From the NCBI GenBank assembly GCA_026388655.1, contig JAPLJI010000070.1, forward strand, positions 1-40,778: 40,778 nucleotides of DNA. The letters are read 5' to 3'. Made by a program: the position numbers and the translations under genes. Under the pieces are notes generated by a model, which was given only the letters and a program-made list of their open reading frames with translations, did not search any database and had not been told where the DNA came from. Shown one piece after another: positions 9,554-20,468 of the stretch. Each line of letters starts with the position of its first letter. Position 1 is the stretch's first letter. Source of the stretch: Pseudomonadota bacterium (lineage in GTDB: Bacteria; Desulfobacterota; JAPLJL01).

Positions 9554-10555
9554 ATGGCGGAAGAAAACCTTTATGAAGACCTGTCCGCGAAAATAAACAT
9601 CGTCGGGTCGAAATACATCCCCCGGATCTGGCGGATGCTGGTGAACGAGGACGAGGCCCGCCTACTCCTGGCCATGCCCGGGACGGAAGCGGAGCTCGCG
9701 GAAAAGACCGGCCTGCCCCTGGACCGGGTCAGGAAAATGCTCCCGCTCCTTTTCCGGAAAGGGGTGGTCTTCGAGAAGGGCACGGGCCCGGAAACAAAGT
9801 ACCGGCCGCCCCGCCATCCCCTCCAGTTTCACGACGGCACCATCCTCTGGCCCGAGGCGCCCCGGGAGTTCCTGGACCTCTGGCAGAAATACATGGACGA
9901 CGAGTACCCCGAGTTCATCAAGATGATGGACGCGGGCGAGATCCGCCCCTTCATGCGGGTGATCCCGGTCAACCAGGGAATCGAGTCCAAGAACCAGGTT
10001 CTTCCCTACGAGGACGCCCTCCGGATGATCGACCAGGCCGAGCGCCTGGCCGTGACCAAGTGCACCTGCCGCCTGACCGCCCACCGGTGCAAGAAACCGC
10101 TCGAAGCCTGCCTCCAGATCAACCGGGCGGCCGAATATTCCCTCAAGCGGGGAACCGGGAGGGAACTCACCAAGAACCAGGCCCGGGAAATCATCCGGAT
10201 CTCGGAAGAGGCCGGGCTGGTTCACCTCACCGAGAACCGCGGGGGGATCGGACAGGTGATCTGCAACTGCTGCGATGACTGCTGCATGATGCTCGTGCTG
10301 ATGAAGAAGATCGGGGCCAAGTGCACCGCCGCCCCCAGCCGCTACCGGGTCCGGATCGCCGGCGGGGACTGCACCGGCTGCGGGGCCTGCCTGGACCGAT
10401 GCCCGATGAAAATCCTGGCCATCCCTAAAGGCAAGGAGGTGGTCGAGGCGAGCCTGGACAAATGCATCGGCTGCGGTCTCTGCACCACCGTTTGTCCGAC
10501 CAAAGCCCTGGTTTTGGAGGAAATCAGGCCGTCTGATTTTATTCCCGCAGCGTGA
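9554..10555 (+). CDS. Winged-helix-like, cysteine-rich 4Fe-4S ferredoxin-type protein (paralogue 1)
   Basis: 333 residues. Residues about 20-75 resemble a winged helix (MLVNEDEARLLLAMPGTEAEL...VRKMLPLLFRKGVVFEKG). A middle cysteine region has CTCRLTAHRC (170-179), Cys186 and CNCCDDCC (237-244). Two classical 4Fe-4S motifs follow: CTGCGACLDRCP (273-284) and CIGCGLCTTVCP (304-315). It is likely a cytoplasmic electron-transfer or redox-sensing protein of the type found in syntrophic and sulfate-reducing anaerobes. The middle cysteines may bind another metal centre (inference). AAAGGAG precedes the ATG by 6 bases. A paralogue follows at 10996; a REP-like hairpin lies 55 bases after the stop. Confidence 0.85.
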   Translation: MAEENLYEDLSAKINIVGSKYIPRIWRMLVNEDEARLLLAMPGTEAELAEKTGLPLDRVRKMLPLLFRKGVVFEKGTGPETKYRPPRHPLQFHDGTILWPEAPREFLDLWQKYMDDEYPEFIKMMDAGEIRPFMRVIPVNQGIESKNQVLPYEDALRMIDQAERLAVTKCTCRLTAHRCKKPLEACLQINRAAEYSLKRGTGRELTKNQAREIIRISEEAGLVHLTENRGGIGQVICNCCDDCCMMLVLMKKIGAKCTAAPSRYRVRIAGGDCTGCGACLDRCPMKILAIPKGKEVVEASLDKCIGCGLCTTVCPTKALVLEEIRPSDFIPAA

Positions 10556-10913: not shown

Positions 10914-10995
10914 ATTCATACTCTCTTCACCGTAAAACCCGTCGATGTTCGAGGATGAAGGTCGCAAATCACCCCCTTTCAGAAAGGAAAAACCG

Positions 10996-11925
10996 ATGAA
11001 AAAACAATCCCGCTCCCAGCGCAGCCGCCTCCAGGATTTCCGGGAATTCAATCAATGGCTCCGAAAACGCGTCCGGAGCCAGCTCGCCGGGGAAGAATAT
11101 GTCTTCACCCGGGAAGACTTCGGCAAAATCTCCGGCTCGGTAGGTATGACCAACCGTCTGATTTCCCGTTTTGGGGGCAGTCGCTGGTACCAGAAAACCC
11201 TGGAATCCTGGTTTTTCGGCCGGCCCGAGCAGAACCTGGTGCAAACCCGGCTCATCCCCCTGAACGCCCAGGTCAAGGATCGGCCGAGCGCTGTTATGCC
11301 CTACCGGATGATAGATGACGTGATCGAGAAAGCCTCCTTCCGATTGATCATGCACGAGTGCATCTGCCGGAAGGGGACGGGCTGCACCGACTACCCGATT
11401 GACTTCGGCTGTCTCTTCCTGGGCGAGGGGGCCCGCACCCTCCTGAAGGGCGACGTGGGCCGCGGCGCGACGATCGAGGAAGCCAAGGCCCATATCCGCA
11501 AGGCCGGGGAAATGAAACTCGTTCCCCTGGCCGCCTACGTGAAGCTCGAGCAATGGGTCATGGGGATCTCGAAAGAAAATCATTCGCGATTGCTGGAGAT
11601 CTGCCTCTGCTGCCCCTGTTGCTGCCTGGGATTGAGAAACCTGAAACATATCTCCCCGGAAGGCCGCCGCCAGGTTTTCCTTAATATCGGCTTCGTGGCC
11701 AAGGCCTTTCCCACCTGCCAGGGCTGTTTCGAATGTGTCTCCGCCTGCCCGGCCGGGGCGATCAAGACCAAGGGCGACAAGGTCTGGGTCAAGGAGGACG
11801 ACTGCGTGGGCTGCGGCCTCTGCCAGAACGCCTGCCCCCATCAGGCCATCCGGCTGGTCCAGATCAAGCCGGCCCGGGGCGGGATCCTGGATTACTTCGA
11901 CGGGCTGCATTTGGATGTGAGTTGA
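10996..11925 (+). CDS. Cysteine-rich 4Fe-4S ferredoxin-type protein (paralogue 2)
   Basis: 309 residues, same layout as the product at 9554-10555. It has an N-terminal basic region, CICRKGTGC (122-130) with Cys139, a dense CLCCPCCC cluster (203-210), and two 4Fe-4S motifs: CQGCFECVSACP (241-252) and CVGCGLCQNACP (270-281). It lacks a clear winged helix; residues 1-45 are rich in Arg/Lys. Role as for the paralogue: electron transfer or redox sensing, partner unknown. The ATG at 10996 with AAAGGAAA upstream is chosen over an in-frame ATG at 10945. It is preceded by its own promoter and the conserved two-block element, so it is probably not transcribed only with paralogue 1. Confidence 0.85.
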   Translation: MKKQSRSQRSRLQDFREFNQWLRKRVRSQLAGEEYVFTREDFGKISGSVGMTNRLISRFGGSRWYQKTLESWFFGRPEQNLVQTRLIPLNAQVKDRPSAVMPYRMIDDVIEKASFRLIMHECICRKGTGCTDYPIDFGCLFLGEGARTLLKGDVGRGATIEEAKAHIRKAGEMKLVPLAAYVKLEQWVMGISKENHSRLLEICLCCPCCCLGLRNLKHISPEGRRQVFLNIGFVAKAFPTCQGCFECVSACPAGAIKTKGDKVWVKEDDCVGCGLCQNACPHQAIRLVQIKPARGGILDYFDGLHLDVS

Positions 11926-13869: not shown

Positions 13870-14097
13870 ATGGAAGAGAAAAAACAAATGCTTTCGGTCT
13901 GGTCCTGGGTGGGAATCATCCTCTCGGTTTACGGCCTGATCGTCACCGGGGCCGGGGTTTATTACCTCTCGCACCCGGAGACCGTAACCGCCCTCCACCA
14001 GCTGAATCCCAGTCTCTGGTGGGGCGCGATCATAGTCGTGGCCGGGGTGCTTCTTCTCCTGGCCGGCCGCTCCGGCAAATCCGGCGGTTCTGACTGA
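13870..14097 (+). CDS. Small two-helix membrane protein, likely symporter partner
   Basis: 75 residues. Two hydrophobic helices: SVWSWVGIILSVYGLIVTGAGVYY (about 8-31) and WWGAIIVVAGVLLLLAG (about 49-65), then a short basic, Gly/Ser-rich tail. It begins 5 bases after the symporter stop; GGTGA, which includes the symporter stop, serves as ribosome site. A GTG at 13861 is an alternative start overlapping that stop. Several SSS transporters have small membrane companions (for example YjcH beside ActP, YhdT beside PanF); this one is not recognisably a member of those families. Confidence 0.65.
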   Translation: MEEKKQMLSVWSWVGIILSVYGLIVTGAGVYYLSHPETVTALHQLNPSLWWGAIIVVAGVLLLLAGRSGKSGGSD

Positions 14098-14177
14098 CAA
14101 ATCCAGGGTCCCGGATCCCGACCTAAAGGTGCCCTTCGATTGATGACGTCCGTCCGCTTAAAATATTTGAGGCTTAC

Positions 14178-14669
14178 ATGTCAAACAAAAACTTAAACAG
14201 AAAAATAATTGCCAAAAAGGAAAATCCGGGGAAATCCCGTTCGAATTCCTTACCTATCAACAAACTGAAGCGGTATTTCCAAAAAAATAATGAAATTTCC
14301 GCCGCTTATCTCTTCGGCTCGTCAGTTCTTTCCCCTGACTCCGCCCGGGACTTGGATATCGCCATCTTGCTCGGCCAGGGACAATCCGTAAACAATTTAA
14401 TCAAAGTCCAAACCAAGTTCTTGCTGGATTTAAAGAATCTGATTGGGCGCCCGGATACTGATTTAATCATTCTTAACAATGCTCCCTTGCTTCTCCGGCA
14501 TGAGGTGATCAAATCCGGTCAACTGATTTATGAAAAAGACGAAGACGCCCGGATTGACTTTGAAGTGGTATCGGATTTGAAATACTACGATTTCGAGCCG
14601 ACCCGCCGGTCTTTCTCCGAGACCTTAAAATCCGACATTCTCAAAGGCCGCTTCTATGCCGCAGAATAA
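14178..14669 (+). CDS. MntA-like nucleotidyltransferase domain protein
   Basis: 163 residues of the pol-beta/MNT nucleotidyltransferase fold: AYLFGSSVLSPDSARDLDIAIL with Gly47-Ser48 and the metal-binding Asp58-x-Asp60, third acidic residue likely Asp95 (PDTDLIILN), then APLLLRHEVIKSGQLIYEKDEDARIDFE, typical of the MntA antitoxin that adenylylates the HEPN toxin HepT. No HepT-like gene is adjacent. Instead its last 14 bases overlap the RadC-HhH gene. The glycine-rich part of the loop between Gly-Ser and the Asp pair is changed (SVLSPDSAR), but the metal ligands are kept. It is the first gene of the AT-rich cassette; the 80-base gap before it marks a base-composition change. Confidence 0.8.
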   Translation: MSNKNLNRKIIAKKENPGKSRSNSLPINKLKRYFQKNNEISAAYLFGSSVLSPDSARDLDIAILLGQGQSVNNLIKVQTKFLLDLKNLIGRPDTDLIILNNAPLLLRHEVIKSGQLIYEKDEDARIDFEVVSDLKYYDFEPTRRSFSETLKSDILKGRFYAAE

Positions 14670-14970
14670 ACAATCCTGGAAACATCCTGGCGGTAAACTT
14701 CGCGAAATTGGCGCGGATCAGCTTGATAATGCCGAGCTTCTTGCCATCCTTATTAGCTCAGGTATTAAAGGGAAATCCGCGGAAACTATTGCCAATGAAC
14801 TTCTAAAAAAATATGGATCCCTTAAGGGCCTTGCCGATCAGCCCTTTGAGAAGCTTTATCAAATAAAAGGATTGAAGGAAGTAAAGGTCCATCGCATTGC
14901 CGCCGCTTTTGAAATCGCCCGTAGAATTGTCGAGGAGGTCTTGAAAGATTATGAGCCCAGAGAAAAGTAA
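14656..14970 (+). CDS. Stand-alone RadC N-terminal helix-hairpin-helix domain protein
   Basis: 104 residues matching only the N-terminal half of RadC/UPF0758 proteins: KLREIGADQLDNAELLAILI, SSGIKGKSAETIANELLKKYGSLKGL, and a DNA-binding helix-hairpin-helix (IKGLKEVKVHRIAAAFEIARR, 70-90). The C-terminal JAB/MPN metalloprotease-like domain with its HxH...D ligands is absent. The gene ends cleanly 20 bases inside the next gene, so the short form looks settled rather than a fresh truncation. It overlaps the nucleotidyltransferase gene at the 5' end (14 bases) and the restriction enzyme gene at the 3' end (20 bases), implying translational coupling. It may bind branched or damaged DNA as a sensor or adaptor (inference). 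Confidence 0.8.
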   Translation: MPQNKQSWKHPGGKLREIGADQLDNAELLAILISSGIKGKSAETIANELLKKYGSLKGLADQPFEKLYQIKGLKEVKVHRIAAAFEIARRIVEEVLKDYEPREK

Positions 14971-17968
14971 AAGGATTCCTCAGCCTTTTACCAGAGTTCA
15001 ATATAACGAAAACACCTGCACCCAAAAGGTCATCGAATGGATGAAAAAAATCCGCGATGAAAAGGGCTTGGGATTCGGAGATATCGTTTTTGATACCTCC
15101 AGCGACGATGAAAAACGCCCCGATGCCCTGATTTTTCAACGCCCTCAAAGTACAAGCGTTATCTGTATCATTGAATTTAAAAAACCAACCGTCGATTTTT
15201 TGGCCCTAAATGTTCGGGGAAAAACGCAAAGTGAAGCAATTCATAGAGGTTCACCATATTTTGCCATTTCCAATTTCCAAGAACTCGTCTGGTTTGACTC
15301 TAAATCAGGAGAAGAAAAGGATTGGCTATCCATATCTCAGATTGAAGATTTAAATCTTATCGAGGATGTCTTTTATAAAAGCGCTATTCTGCGCGGGCTC
15401 GAACAATTTCTTAATAAACTTTTCGAATATCACACCGGAAAAGCTGCGCTCCCTCGCCGGAACATTGACGAACTTCTTATTTACTACCTTCAGCAAAAGG
15501 TAAAGACCCTTTCCCGTCTTTATACGCCAATTATCAGGGATCAAGTCCATAAAGAAAAATCTTTTGCCAAATCACTTTGGAAATGGATGGAAATTCAAGG
15601 CTGGGAACGTTCAGATGAACCTGAAAAAGATTACGCAAAAGTTGCCCGGCAAGCCGCTTATTTATTAGTCAATAAAATTATCTTCTATGACGCCTTACAA
15701 GCAAAGGTTCCAGAACGCCTCGATAAATTAGAAATTCCCGAGAGCCTCACAAAAGGCGGCAGGCTTCAACATGAACTGCAAGGGTATTTTAATGAAGTCC
15801 TAAAAATTGATTATGAAACAATCTATGGAGATACTGAGTTTATTGATAAAGAGATCGCTTTTCCTGATCATAGGGAAGTTGTTGAAGCCATCAAAGATCT
15901 CATTAATTTCTTAAAACCTTATCGCTTCGAAAAAATCGGGGTTGATATTGTCGGCAGAATTTTCGAACGATTAATCCCGGAAAACGAACGTCATTTACTC
16001 GGGCAGTACTTCACCGATCCGAATATCGTTGACCTTATCTTAAAATATTGCATGCGCCATGAGGATGACAAACTTTTCGACCCCGCCTGCGGTACGGGAA
16101 CATTTTTGGTTCGGGCATATCACCATAAAAAACTGATGAACGACCGTCTAACCCACGAAGCGATTTTAAAAACAGTCTGGGGAAACGATATCGCCAAATT
16201 CCCTCACACACTTACTATGATTAACCTCGCCCTTAACGATTTAAGCGTGGAAAAGAATTATCCCAACATCATGCAGGAAGATTTTTTCAATCTGTTCGCT
16301 CAACATAGTGGATTTGAATTACCTGAAAGCCACCGAAACCGATTGATTAAAACCCTCGGAAGAGAGGAAAAGGAAATTATTTATCCACGTTGGTTTGACT
16401 GTATCGTCGGGAATCCCCCCTACACAAGATCCCACGAGAAGGAATCGGGAGCCTGGGGGAAAAACAAGGATTTGTTAATCAAGCAAGCTCTTAACGATCC
16501 TAACGGACGTAAGCTCGCGGATATTCCCGCCAATGCCGGCATTCACGCCTACTTTTTCGTGCACGGCTTTAAATTTCTTCAAAACGAAGGGCGCTTCGGC
16601 TTTATTGTTTCTAATTCATGGCTCAATGCTGATTACGGCGCCGGACTTCAAGAGTTCTTTCTTAACAACGCTAAAATAATCGCCATCATCGAATCCGCCG
16701 TCGAAAGATGGTTTGCCGACGCGGATATTAACACCTGCATTATCATCCTGGAAAAATGTGCTAATTCAAAAGAGAGGAATGAAAACCTTGTCCGCTTTGT
16801 CCAGCTAAAAAAGACCCTTTCCGTTTTATTTCCAACGCCCGTTGATGATATCCGTGAACATAAAAGGGATCGCAAAGATGAAGTGGAAAGTTTGATCAAT
16901 ACCATCGGTGCTCACAATTCCTTTTATGAAAATAACGATATGCGGATATTCCCCAAGAAGCAGTCAGAACTATGGGCGGAAGGCTATGATCCAAAAGCGG
17001 AAAAATATATAGGATCAAAATGGGAACCATACATCATCGCCCCCCGTATATTTTTTACTATTCTTCAAAAAGCACGTGGGAAAATGATTCCTCTCAGATT
17101 GCTCGGTGAGGTTAACGAGGGGAAAGCCACCGGAGCTAACGAGTATTTTTATCCTAAAAAAGAAATCGCGGAAAAGCGAAAAATCGAGAATCGTTACCTT
17201 CACCCGGGACTGATGAAGGTTAGAGGATTTAATTACTTTCAACTTCAGTCCAAACACATTGATAGGTATTTCTTTTCTACCGGCAAAAGCGATCGGGACA
17301 AATTGCCACCCGGAGCGCTCGGCTATATTGAATACGGTGAACGACAAAAGATTCATAAAGGAAAAACCTTCGCAATTAAAACATTAAAGAACTGGTACCA
17401 GTTAGAGGCAAGAAAACCGGCGGAGCTTCTTATCCCTTGCGGAATGAGAGAGCGATTGTACTGTACTTTAAATTCAGCCAAAGCAATATCTAGCAATAGT
17501 TATACTGAAATACGTTTAAAAAACCCGAAAATACAACATGCGATTTGGTTATTTTTTAACTCTGTCATTGGTTGGCTTTTTTTTGAAATGTATGGGAGAG
17601 GGCTTGGCGGAGGTGGAGGAATGCTAAAAGTCGATCCGACCGATATTCGCAAAATGTTTATTATCTCCCCTGAGCACTTGGATTTTGATTTTTCTAAAGT
17701 TAAGTCTTTACTAGATCGTCCCGTGGGAACGGTTGAAGATGAATGTAAAGCTGAAGATAGGAAATTATTGGACGATTTAATCATGGGAAAAGTATTGAAA
17801 CTTACAAGCGAAGAACAAAATGAAGTCTATTCTGCTGTAATTGATCTCGTAAAAACCCGCCTGACTAAGGCAACCAGCGTCAAAGGCAAAAAAACGATTC
17901 ACGATGGGATTGACACCGCGAAATTAATAGAGGAATTTAAAAATAATGTTACCGAAGACGGAGACTAA
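14951..17968 (+). CDS. Type IIG-like restriction-modification enzyme (PD-(D/E)XK nuclease plus N6-adenine methylase)
   Basis: 1005 residues. The N-terminus carries a PD-(D/E)XK nuclease signature: RPDALIF (Asp58), then ICIIEFKKP (Glu75, Lys77), then a conserved-looking QSEAIHRGSPYFAISN segment. A helical linker leads to an N6-adenine methyltransferase with motif I DPACGTGTF (377-385, SAM binding) and motif IV NPPY (488-491, target-base binding). The C-terminal third (about 690-960) should hold the target-recognition region, with GEVNEGKATGANEYF and GRGLGGGGGMLKVDPTDIR. Length and order fit single-chain type IIG enzymes that both methylate and cut. All key residues are present. GAGGAGG lies 13 bases before the ATG. 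It is the core of the cassette; two more genes follow at 2 and 50 bases. Confidence 0.85.
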   Translation: MSPEKSKRIPQPFTRVQYNENTCTQKVIEWMKKIRDEKGLGFGDIVFDTSSDDEKRPDALIFQRPQSTSVICIIEFKKPTVDFLALNVRGKTQSEAIHRGSPYFAISNFQELVWFDSKSGEEKDWLSISQIEDLNLIEDVFYKSAILRGLEQFLNKLFEYHTGKAALPRRNIDELLIYYLQQKVKTLSRLYTPIIRDQVHKEKSFAKSLWKWMEIQGWERSDEPEKDYAKVARQAAYLLVNKIIFYDALQAKVPERLDKLEIPESLTKGGRLQHELQGYFNEVLKIDYETIYGDTEFIDKEIAFPDHREVVEAIKDLINFLKPYRFEKIGVDIVGRIFERLIPENERHLLGQYFTDPNIVDLILKYCMRHEDDKLFDPACGTGTFLVRAYHHKKLMNDRLTHEAILKTVWGNDIAKFPHTLTMINLALNDLSVEKNYPNIMQEDFFNLFAQHSGFELPESHRNRLIKTLGREEKEIIYPRWFDCIVGNPPYTRSHEKESGAWGKNKDLLIKQALNDPNGRKLADIPANAGIHAYFFVHGFKFLQNEGRFGFIVSNSWLNADYGAGLQEFFLNNAKIIAIIESAVERWFADADINTCIIILEKCANSKERNENLVRFVQLKKTLSVLFPTPVDDIREHKRDRKDEVESLINTIGAHNSFYENNDMRIFPKKQSELWAEGYDPKAEKYIGSKWEPYIIAPRIFFTILQKARGKMIPLRLLGEVNEGKATGANEYFYPKKEIAEKRKIENRYLHPGLMKVRGFNYFQLQSKHIDRYFFSTGKSDRDKLPPGALGYIEYGERQKIHKGKTFAIKTLKNWYQLEARKPAELLIPCGMRERLYCTLNSAKAISSNSYTEIRLKNPKIQHAIWLFFNSVIGWLFFEMYGRGLGGGGGMLKVDPTDIRKMFIISPEHLDFDFSKVKSLLDRPVGTVEDECKAEDRKLLDDLIMGKVLKLTSEEQNEVYSAVIDLVKTRLTKATSVKGKKTIHDGIDTAKLIEEFKNNVTEDGD

Positions 17969-17970
17969 TC

Positions 17971-18354
17971 ATGGCCATGCTGCCGGAAGAATTCTATCGA
18001 TCTAAAATTTTGACCTGCTCTCCCCGAAAATCAGTCGATCTTCCCGGGCCAAGAGATTACAATGAAATTCGCATTGAAAAAAGCCTTTTCGAATGGAGAC
18101 TTTATTATTCTAAAAAAAGATATTTGTGTTGTCCGTCCGAATGGGAAGCCCGCTATCTAAAAGTCTGGCTCGAAGGAGGACTGAATAAAATCGAAATGCC
18201 TTCTAATGAAGAACTTCTTAAAAATATTACTCTCGAACTTGAGAAACTCTCCTTAAGAATATTGAAATTGGCTGATGAAAAACTTGCCGGTTATCGTGAA
18301 CCGATAAAACGCGAAGTCCTCCAAGGCGTATGGCAAGTTGAAGAGTCAAAATAA
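17971..18354 (+). CDS. Small protein of unknown function in the defence cassette
   Basis: 127 residues; not recognised. It starts 2 bases after the restriction enzyme stop with GGAGA 7 bases upstream, so it is surely part of the same transcript. Residues about 40-75 are rich in aromatic and basic residues (EWRLYYSKKRYLCCPSEWEARYLKVW), followed by a leucine-rich helix (LLKNITLELEKLSLRILKLADEKL) that could form a coiled coil. No catalytic motif, signal peptide or membrane segment is seen. It could be a partner or specificity aid of the restriction enzyme, but nothing in the sequence proves this. Confidence 0.7.
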   Translation: MAMLPEEFYRSKILTCSPRKSVDLPGPRDYNEIRIEKSLFEWRLYYSKKRYLCCPSEWEARYLKVWLEGGLNKIEMPSNEELLKNITLELEKLSLRILKLADEKLAGYREPIKREVLQGVWQVEESK

Positions 18355-18404
18355 CCACATAATGATTTAAGAAAATAATTTTTAAGGGACTATCAATAAC
18401 CGTC

Positions 18405-19271
18405 ATGAAAAAACAAGAAAACAAATTATGGAATAAAGCCAGATATTCATTAGAGAAACATTATAAATATATTTGTTCCAACCCAAATTCAAAGAATTCA
18501 AAGTTAAAAGCAGGGTTTATTAACATAGGTATCGGTGGAATCATAGCTGACGTTATCGGTATAAAGGATATTGGAAACCATTTCGAGCCAAAAATAGAGA
18601 TTATTGCCATTGAAGTTAAAGAAAATCTTCCAAATTATCGAGAAAGACATATGGATCAGGTTAGAAGGGCATCTGTTTTCGCCCATAAGGTTTTTCTTGC
18701 TGCCCCAAGAGAATTTAAACCGGAGGAAGTGGAACTTGCTGTTAAGGAAAGAGTGGGATTATTTGAACTTAATCCTGAGAAAAGAAAATTAAAATTAATC
18801 GTCCCCTCTCCCCCTTTTGAGCCATCGGAAAGCAAAATTATTGAATTAATGAGAAGGCTAGATTTTTTTAAATGTACCGTTTGCAACTGTTATTGGAATA
18901 AAAATCTAATAACCATAGATGGTTATAGGTCAACCCATGTATTTTCAAATAATATAAAACCTCTGAGATTCAATAAATTCATTTGCGATAAGTGTTCTTC
19001 TAAATTATTCAAGCTCCATTCTAAGGATTTGAGCAATAAATTCGCTGAGGAATGGAAAGTCAAACGGATAAATAAAAAAACAGAAAAAATCGATTTACGA
19101 ACTAAAAAATTAGCGGAAAAAAAAGATATCAGCAAAATCAACGACAGGTTGTCTAAAGAAGATGAAAAAATAAAAAATATGAGAAGATATTTTAAAGAAT
19201 TATTTAATAAAAGACTTAAATCACTTAACAAACAATTAAACAAAGTCAGGAGAGGTTTAAAATCCATTTAA
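18405..19271 (+). CDS. Putative PD-(D/E)XK nuclease with zinc-knuckle-like region and basic coiled-coil tail
   Basis: 288 residues. Residues 45-100 have a restriction-endonuclease-like core: IADVIGIKDIG (Asp49), then IEIIAIEVKENL (Glu70-x-Lys72), then MDQVRRASVFAHKVFLAAP, the usual third strand and helix. Four cysteines in two pairs, CTVC (157-160) and CDKC (194-197), could bind zinc. The last 80 residues are highly charged, Lys-rich and helical. This suggests a DNA- or RNA-cutting enzyme; the family is not one I can name. It lies 50 bases after the previous gene and is the most AT-rich gene of the window. It closes the cassette; galK begins 30 bases later in DNA of ordinary composition. Confidence 0.65.
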   Translation: MKKQENKLWNKARYSLEKHYKYICSNPNSKNSKLKAGFINIGIGGIIADVIGIKDIGNHFEPKIEIIAIEVKENLPNYRERHMDQVRRASVFAHKVFLAAPREFKPEEVELAVKERVGLFELNPEKRKLKLIVPSPPFEPSESKIIELMRRLDFFKCTVCNCYWNKNLITIDGYRSTHVFSNNIKPLRFNKFICDKCSSKLFKLHSKDLSNKFAEEWKVKRINKKTEKIDLRTKKLAEKKDISKINDRLSKEDEKIKNMRRYFKELFNKRLKSLNKQLNKVRRGLKSI

Positions 19272-19301
19272 TTATTTTGAAAACGCTTGGTTTTACTGTC
19301 T

Positions 19302-20468
19302 ATGGAACCCCGAATCCAAAAACTCCAAGAGGAATTTAAAAAACAATTCGGCTCCGATCAGGATACCCAACTGTTCCAGGCCCCCGGGCGGGTCAACCTG
19401 ATCGGCGAGCATACCGATTACAACGAGGGCTTCGTCCTCCCGGCCGCGATCGACCGGAGTATCCTCGCCCTGGCCCGGCCCCGGAAGGATAAGCAGGTCC
19501 GGATCTATTCCCGGGATTTTCAAAATCTCTTCGAGTTCTCGCTCGATAAAATCAAGCCGGTCAAGGACAGCTGGGGCAACTACCCGATGGGGGTGGCGGA
19601 GATTCTCCAGGGTGAGAAGCTCAAGCTGAAAGGCTTCGAAGCGGTTTCCGAGAGCAATGTCCCGGTGGGGGCGGGGTTAAGTTCCTCCGCCGCGATTGAG
19701 CTCGTGAACGCCTTCATCTTCGCCACCTTTTCCAAGCTGAAGCTCGACCGGGTGAAAATGGCTCTCCTCTGCCAGAAGGCCGAGAACGAGTTTGTCGGGG
19801 TCAAGTGCGGGATCATGGACCAGTTCATCATCGCCCTGGGCGAAAAGGACCGGGCCCTTTTCCTGGACTGCCGCGACCTTTCCTACCGCCTGATCCCGGT
19901 TCAGAGCGAAAAGGTGAAGCTGGTCATCACCAATACCAAGGTCAAGCGGAGCCTCGCGGGCTCGGAATACAACCAGAGGCGGGAGGAGTGCGGCGAGGGG
20001 GTGAATCTCCTCAAAAAGAAGCTGCCGAAAATCAAATCCCTCCGGGATGTCACCCCGGAAGACCTGGCGGAGCACCAGGAACTGCTTCCGGAAACGGTGC
20101 GGAAGCGCTGTTTCCACGTGGTGATGGAAAACGACCGGGTCGTAAAGGCGGTGGAAGCCTTGGAGAAAAACAGCCTGCGGGAATTCGGCCGGTTGATGAT
20201 TGAGTCGCATAACTCGCTCCGGGACCTTTACCAGGTGAGCTGCCCGGAGCTCGACCTCCTGGTGAAAAACGCACTTTCCCTGAAGGGGGTTCTCGGCTCC
20301 CGGATGACCGGGGCGGGCTTCGGGGGCTGCACCGTGAGCCTGGTGGACGAGAAAGCCGTGGACGAGTTCCGGATCAAGTCCAGCCGGGGCTACCAGAAGG
20401 AAACCGGCAAGGTCCCCGAGTTCTACGTCTGCCGGATTTCCGACGGGGTAAGAGAGGTCAAGAGCTGA
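19302..20468 (+). CDS. galK: Galactokinase
   Basis: 388 residues, normal length. GHMP-kinase motifs are complete: APGRVNLIGEHTDYNEGFVLP (27-47, sugar-binding signature), VPVGAGLSSSAAIELV (ATP-binding loop), GVKCGIMDQF with the catalytic Asp, and GSRMTGAGFGGCTVSLV near the C-terminus. It makes galactose-1-phosphate from galactose and ATP, the first committed step of the Leloir pathway. No galT, galE or regulator is adjacent. The ATG at 19302 matches family starts; an upstream in-frame TTG at 19287 is less likely. There is no clear ribosome site, and the start lies only 30 bases after the AT-rich cassette, so its original leader may have been replaced. Confidence 0.93.
   Translation: MEPRIQKLQEEFKKQFGSDQDTQLFQAPGRVNLIGEHTDYNEGFVLPAAIDRSILALARPRKDKQVRIYSRDFQNLFEFSLDKIKPVKDSWGNYPMGVAEILQGEKLKLKGFEAVSESNVPVGAGLSSSAAIELVNAFIFATFSKLKLDRVKMALLCQKAENEFVGVKCGIMDQFIIALGEKDRALFLDCRDLSYRLIPVQSEKVKLVITNTKVKRSLAGSEYNQRREECGEGVNLLKKKLPKIKSLRDVTPEDLAEHQELLPETVRKRCFHVVMENDRVVKAVEALEKNSLREFGRLMIESHNSLRDLYQVSCPELDLLVKNALSLKGVLGSRMTGAGFGGCTVSLVDEKAVDEFRIKSSRGYQKETGKVPEFYVCRISDGVREVKS

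Follow-up and report, generated by a model that had tools for sequence, protein, structure and literature searches.

The window (the whole 40,778-nucleotide stretch of DNA that was analysed) contains five ORFs packed on the plus strand between a symporter gene and galK. They encode an MntA-type nucleotidyltransferase (NT, 14178..14669), a stand-alone RadC-N-like protein with an HhH domain (14656..14970), a type IIG restriction-modification enzyme (14951..17968), a protein of 127 residues (17971..18354) and a protein of 288 residues (18405..19271). The NT and HhH genes overlap by 14 bases and the HhH and IIG genes by 20 bases, with 2 bases separating the IIG gene from the 127-aa ORF and 50 bases separating the latter from the 288-aa ORF. 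The G+C content of the cassette is 0.35-0.47, compared with 0.57-0.60 for its flanks. The ORF positions, tight packing and AT-richness thus agree with the original prediction, and family searches bear out its assignment of the first three genes to an MntA-like NT, the HhH half of RadC and a type IIG enzyme.

The cassette was compared by blastn with two genomes from the same genus (G049, locus L031, and G011, locus L032). In both, homology stops at 14079 and picks up at 19302, which is the ATG start of galK. Both genomes share the flanks and lack the cassette; therefore, the 5.2-kb cassette is a clean insertion, and we delimit a horizontally acquired island at 14080..19301 (no strand assigned), lying between a 78-aa ORF on the symporter side and galK. 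The same gap is filled by approximately 400 bp of repeat-rich DNA in G049 and by an unrelated MNT-HepT pair in G011 (L032:8478-9123), the latter showing that the site repeatedly takes defence-type inserts.

The HhH protein is 104 residues long and matches Pfam UPF0758_N (PF20582) above the gathering score, at 5.5e-18. It is homologous to the N-terminal HhH domain of RadC (UPF0758) and covers only the first ~90 of the 212 positions of the RadC model (score 73, cut-off 180). Unlike RadC, it lacks the JAB/MPN domain and carries the signature W-x-H-P-G-G-K in place of the RPREKL region. Moreover, proteins with this signature form a clade apart from RadC (98/91), although support values in so short an alignment are of limited weight. 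An AF2 model of the protein (pLDDT 90.7) adopts an HhH fold, the closest folds being the HhH domains of DisA, XPF, Hef, ERCC1, LigA and UvrC, with a moderate best Z of 7.5. These domains bind DNA structures. In the HhH hairpin of the window copy, the second glycine is not conserved. A Pfam scan of the protein returned no HTH family, and none of the PADLOC models matches it. Among relatives the median dN/dS of the HhH gene is 0.08, and the gene is therefore under strong purifying selection.

The type IIG enzyme combines a predicted N-terminal PD-(D/E)XK nuclease (PD...ExK at 57-77; D58, E75, K77), a helical linker, an N6-adenine methyltransferase (DPACG at 377-381, NPPY at 488-491) and a variable target-recognition region at about 730-930. 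D58, E75, K77 and NPPY are identical in 39/39 IIG sequences, and DPACG is likewise invariant in the 39. The methylase matches Pfam N6_Mtase/Eco57I and the whole enzyme the PADLOC model REase_MTase_IIG (3.5e-51), whilst a structural model of a relative's enzyme retrieved CamA, M.BseCI, BpuSI and DrdV. Judged from its motifs and from this model, nuclease, methylase and target recognition reside in one polypeptide, as in type IIG enzymes of the Eco57I/BpuSI/DrdV/MmeI kind. The enzyme differs from these in its nearly constant linkage to an HhH gene upstream and in having an extra C-terminal domain, which is sometimes a separate gene. The 127-aa protein had been presented as an independent unknown and has no family match of its own in Pfam, PADLOC or NCBIfam. 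However, its sequence corresponds by homology to the last ~130 residues of IIG proteins in which this part is fused; it is a detached domain of the enzyme, so an independent function was rejected. This domain, which we modelled inside a relative's full enzyme, is fused in most relatives and separate in the window and in 8 other loci, and the tree of IIG enzymes requires about 7 changes between the fused and split states. At six loci (L037, L073, L074, L085, L095, L096) the IIG frame is interrupted mid-gene, either by a frameshift or through an assembly error, and both parts of the frame persist.

Whether neighbours are conserved together elsewhere was the test set beforehand for the cassette. 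Within the phylum, a search with the IIG enzyme retrieved five full-length relatives from other families (48-56% identity). An HhH gene lies upstream in all four that have upstream sequence, adjacent in three and, in L024, set apart by a small RelBE-like pair, and the C-terminal domain is fused in 4/5 and a separate gene in L025. In G151, where the contig begins inside the IIG enzyme, the HhH gene and the start of the enzyme were found at the end of another contig. We then scanned GTDB species with an IIG alignment blind to HhH, yielding 66 subfamily members from about 20 phyla, archaea included; those sampled form one clade with 100% SH-aLRT support. Three of these loci are cut before any upstream gene. 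An intact HhH gene stands upstream of the IIG gene in 60 of the remaining 63, truncated HhH remnants are found in two (L045 and L084), and the single locus without any HhH has a 5′-truncated IIG enzyme. Since the IIG frame remains open beside both remnants, the HhH gene may be dispensable. None of 10 more distant IIG relatives (26-31% identity) has an HhH gene.

With start codons set by the longest ORF, the HhH and IIG genes overlap in 46 of the 60 loci, lie within 5 bases of each other in 6 and have small genes between them in 8. In all eight of the latter (L040, L048, L049, L068, L085, L094, L096, L103) the HhH gene is intact, and the intervening genes are mostly toxin-antitoxin-like (RelBE-, HicAB- or BrnT-like) and in one case DUF3800-like. 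Moreover, HhH and IIG distances are correlated (rho = 0.60, against 0.31 for the best of 1000 permutations), which shows the two genes to be co-inherited. By comparison, the NT gene and the 288-aa gene are found in 0/66 related IIG loci. The neighbourhood test therefore upholds the HhH-IIG pair, which 60 or more genomes from many phyla share, and not the cassette as a whole: the core unit is the HhH protein, the type IIG enzyme and the 127-aa domain, not a five-gene system. The archaeal partners at L079, L080 and L090 retain RPREKL, the usual start of RadC-N, where the others have W-HPGGK, and may represent a separate recruitment.

An HhH alignment was also searched against 395 phylum genomes, where the stand-alone family, with E below 1e-28 and a length of about 100 aa in most members, separates from full-length RadC. 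Every intact W-HPGGK gene found in these genomes precedes a restriction-type gene. The partners include a different IIG family of 1350 aa (IIG-B; L125, L126), a type I HsdR-S-M set (L128) and a fusion of a methylase with a probable nuclease, the latter recognised from motifs read by eye (L129-L131). At a contig end, an HhH gene precedes the start of an apparent third IIG family (L127), which motifs read by eye link to an HhH-IIG pair on a viral contig (L134). That contig is the one viral find; phage and plasmid records returned no HhH at the limits used. In the tree, the HhH of the type I partner nests with that of an IIG-B partner (100/92, dS 0.78); both come from one bacterial family, and the sharing appears to be a fairly recent swap. 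Judging by gene order and phylogeny, the HhH protein behaves as an exchangeable accessory of unrelated restriction systems, encoded before the nuclease-bearing gene. Two tandem arrangements were also seen. At L163:6766-7404 a double HhH within a single protein precedes an REase-like gene, called a nuclease by eye, that is convergent with an HTH-methylase, and this partner is probably a two-gene type II system. At L167:1679-2239 the HhH is duplicated in tandem within one protein, beside a methylase-nuclease fusion.

We interpret the unit as a two-partner type IIG system in which the exchangeable HhH protein is most likely a DNA-binding component that works in the restriction step, a reading to which we give a probability of about 0.5. 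The HhH protein, encoded first and usually in an overlapping frame, would be the partner of the bifunctional IIG enzyme. It would bind DNA, possibly branched or gapped, and act as a subunit or cofactor that associates with the enzyme and loads or gates the nuclease on incoming DNA. We infer that it serves restriction because its partners share only cutting and a methylase, and because it precedes the nuclease-bearing gene each time. Recognition, methylation and cutting are commonly taken to be all that a restriction system requires. That a small protein of DNA-binding type stays with one IIG clade almost without fail, in archaea and about 20 phyla, and has also moved to at least three further architectures suggests that these enzymes have a need in common that is still unsolved, be it loading, licensing or self-protection. 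The linkage likewise hints at what the little-understood N-terminal domain of RadC may do. More tentatively, and with somewhat less than even odds, the W-HPGGK protein could be a general, exchangeable DNA-sensing subunit, recruited by several IIG families, type I systems, methylase-nuclease fusions and probably a two-gene type II system to license or target the nuclease; it would then constitute an undescribed regulatory layer.

We found no earlier description of an HhH-IIG partnership in PADLOC models or open-licence papers, nor, in the open-licence literature, of any association between RadC (UPF0758) and type IIG or other restriction-modification systems, although one may exist elsewhere, for instance in REBASE notes. 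The original view that these genes do not make up a recognised type of defence is in keeping with this. The methylase domain of the IIG enzyme also gives weak matches to the N6A methylases of MADS, BREX (PglX) and DISARM. However, MAD2 scores 70.4 bits against a cut-off of 720, and none of the other genes of these systems is present in the cassette.

The data do not decide between the HhH protein as cofactor, as controller and as a means of self-protection. As a controller of expression or activity it would be made first and would delay or limit the nuclease during methylation of the new host's DNA, with a position like that of the C (controller) proteins of type II systems. The position fits, as in every partner type a small gene lies directly upstream of, and often overlaps, the nuclease-bearing gene, and the exchange of partners suits a generic regulator. 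However, C proteins are of the HTH_XRE type, whereas the protein here is an HhH protein and also accompanies a type I system. HhH domains are not helix-turn-helices and seldom read DNA sequence, which argues against a controller. Nor are there clear operator repeats: inverted repeats with arms of at least 6 occur upstream of the HhH gene in 24/59 loci, a slight excess over the ~16 expected from shuffles. We regard a controller as unlikely, if the strongest of the alternatives to a restriction cofactor.

A role after cleavage, or on self damage, is less probable still. Here the HhH protein would act at host sites, recognising breaks, gaps or junctions there and protecting the chromosome or helping to repair it. 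Its RadC-N ancestry, its resemblance to structure-binding HhH domains (DisA, XPF/ERCC1, Hef) and the fact that all its partners are DNA-cutting enzymes are compatible with such a role. However, a repair enzyme is absent beside the HhH gene, and doubt has been cast on a repair function of RadC itself (Attaiech 2008, as cited in PMC11981726).

Under the original prediction, the HhH protein and the NT might both gate or back up the restriction enzyme, resulting in an abortive or two-stage defence. Of this, the link of the HhH gene to the IIG gene stands, and the NT falls outside the conserved unit. The NT matches Pfam Polbeta/MntA (4.7e-18) and NCBIfam MntA (68.7 bits, cut-off 60), with the catalytic GS..DxD motif present as GSS...DLD. 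It thus resembles the MntA of MntA-HepT (type VII) toxin-antitoxin systems; however, the cassette has no HepT (HEPN) toxin, the next gene being HhH, and the four HepT-like genes of the genome are all on other contigs. As a HepT-like gene comes next in 14/19 NT relatives in the phylum, the window NT looks like an antitoxin without its toxin, or else acts on a HepT encoded elsewhere. The missing HepT also leaves an abortive or two-stage mechanism unsupported.

The 288-aa protein had been called a zinc-knuckle, PD-(D/E)XK-like nuclease. By eye, its sequence shows IIADV...IEIIAIEVK as a possible PD-(D/E)XK core and, as a zinc knuckle, CxxC...CxxC, and the protein is possibly nuclease-like. However, it has no family match in Pfam, PADLOC or NCBIfam, its matches in the PDB are noise, and searches of 297 phylum genomes and of plasmids, phages and viral contigs turned up no relative (the class search amounted to 3 genomes). 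Together with the NT it is a local addition, a neighbour in one inserted island.

That the five genes together make up a single defence system, in which the NT and the zinc protein serve as gate or backup effector, is accordingly very improbable. Such a system would suit the tight packing on one strand within a single island, and NT-type genes do lie just upstream of HhH at L125:35-1231 (MNT-HEPN) and L126:2285-3179 (DUF2204-like), too few cases to call a link. However, the NT and 288-aa genes are missing from all the related loci, on which ground the five-gene system was rejected; many kinds of toxin-antitoxin genes flank or split these units, and the NT is without its HepT partner. A chance pile-up in a defence island, whilst suiting the NT and 288-aa genes, is excluded for the HhH, IIG and 127-aa components by the conservation counts, and as an account of the cassette it has next to no likelihood. 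A further NT-type gene lies just upstream of HhH at L132:4345-4973. Lastly, ahead of the island, the window encodes two adjoining ferredoxin-type (4Fe-4S) proteins of ~330 aa and similar layout, at 9554-10552 and 10945-11922.
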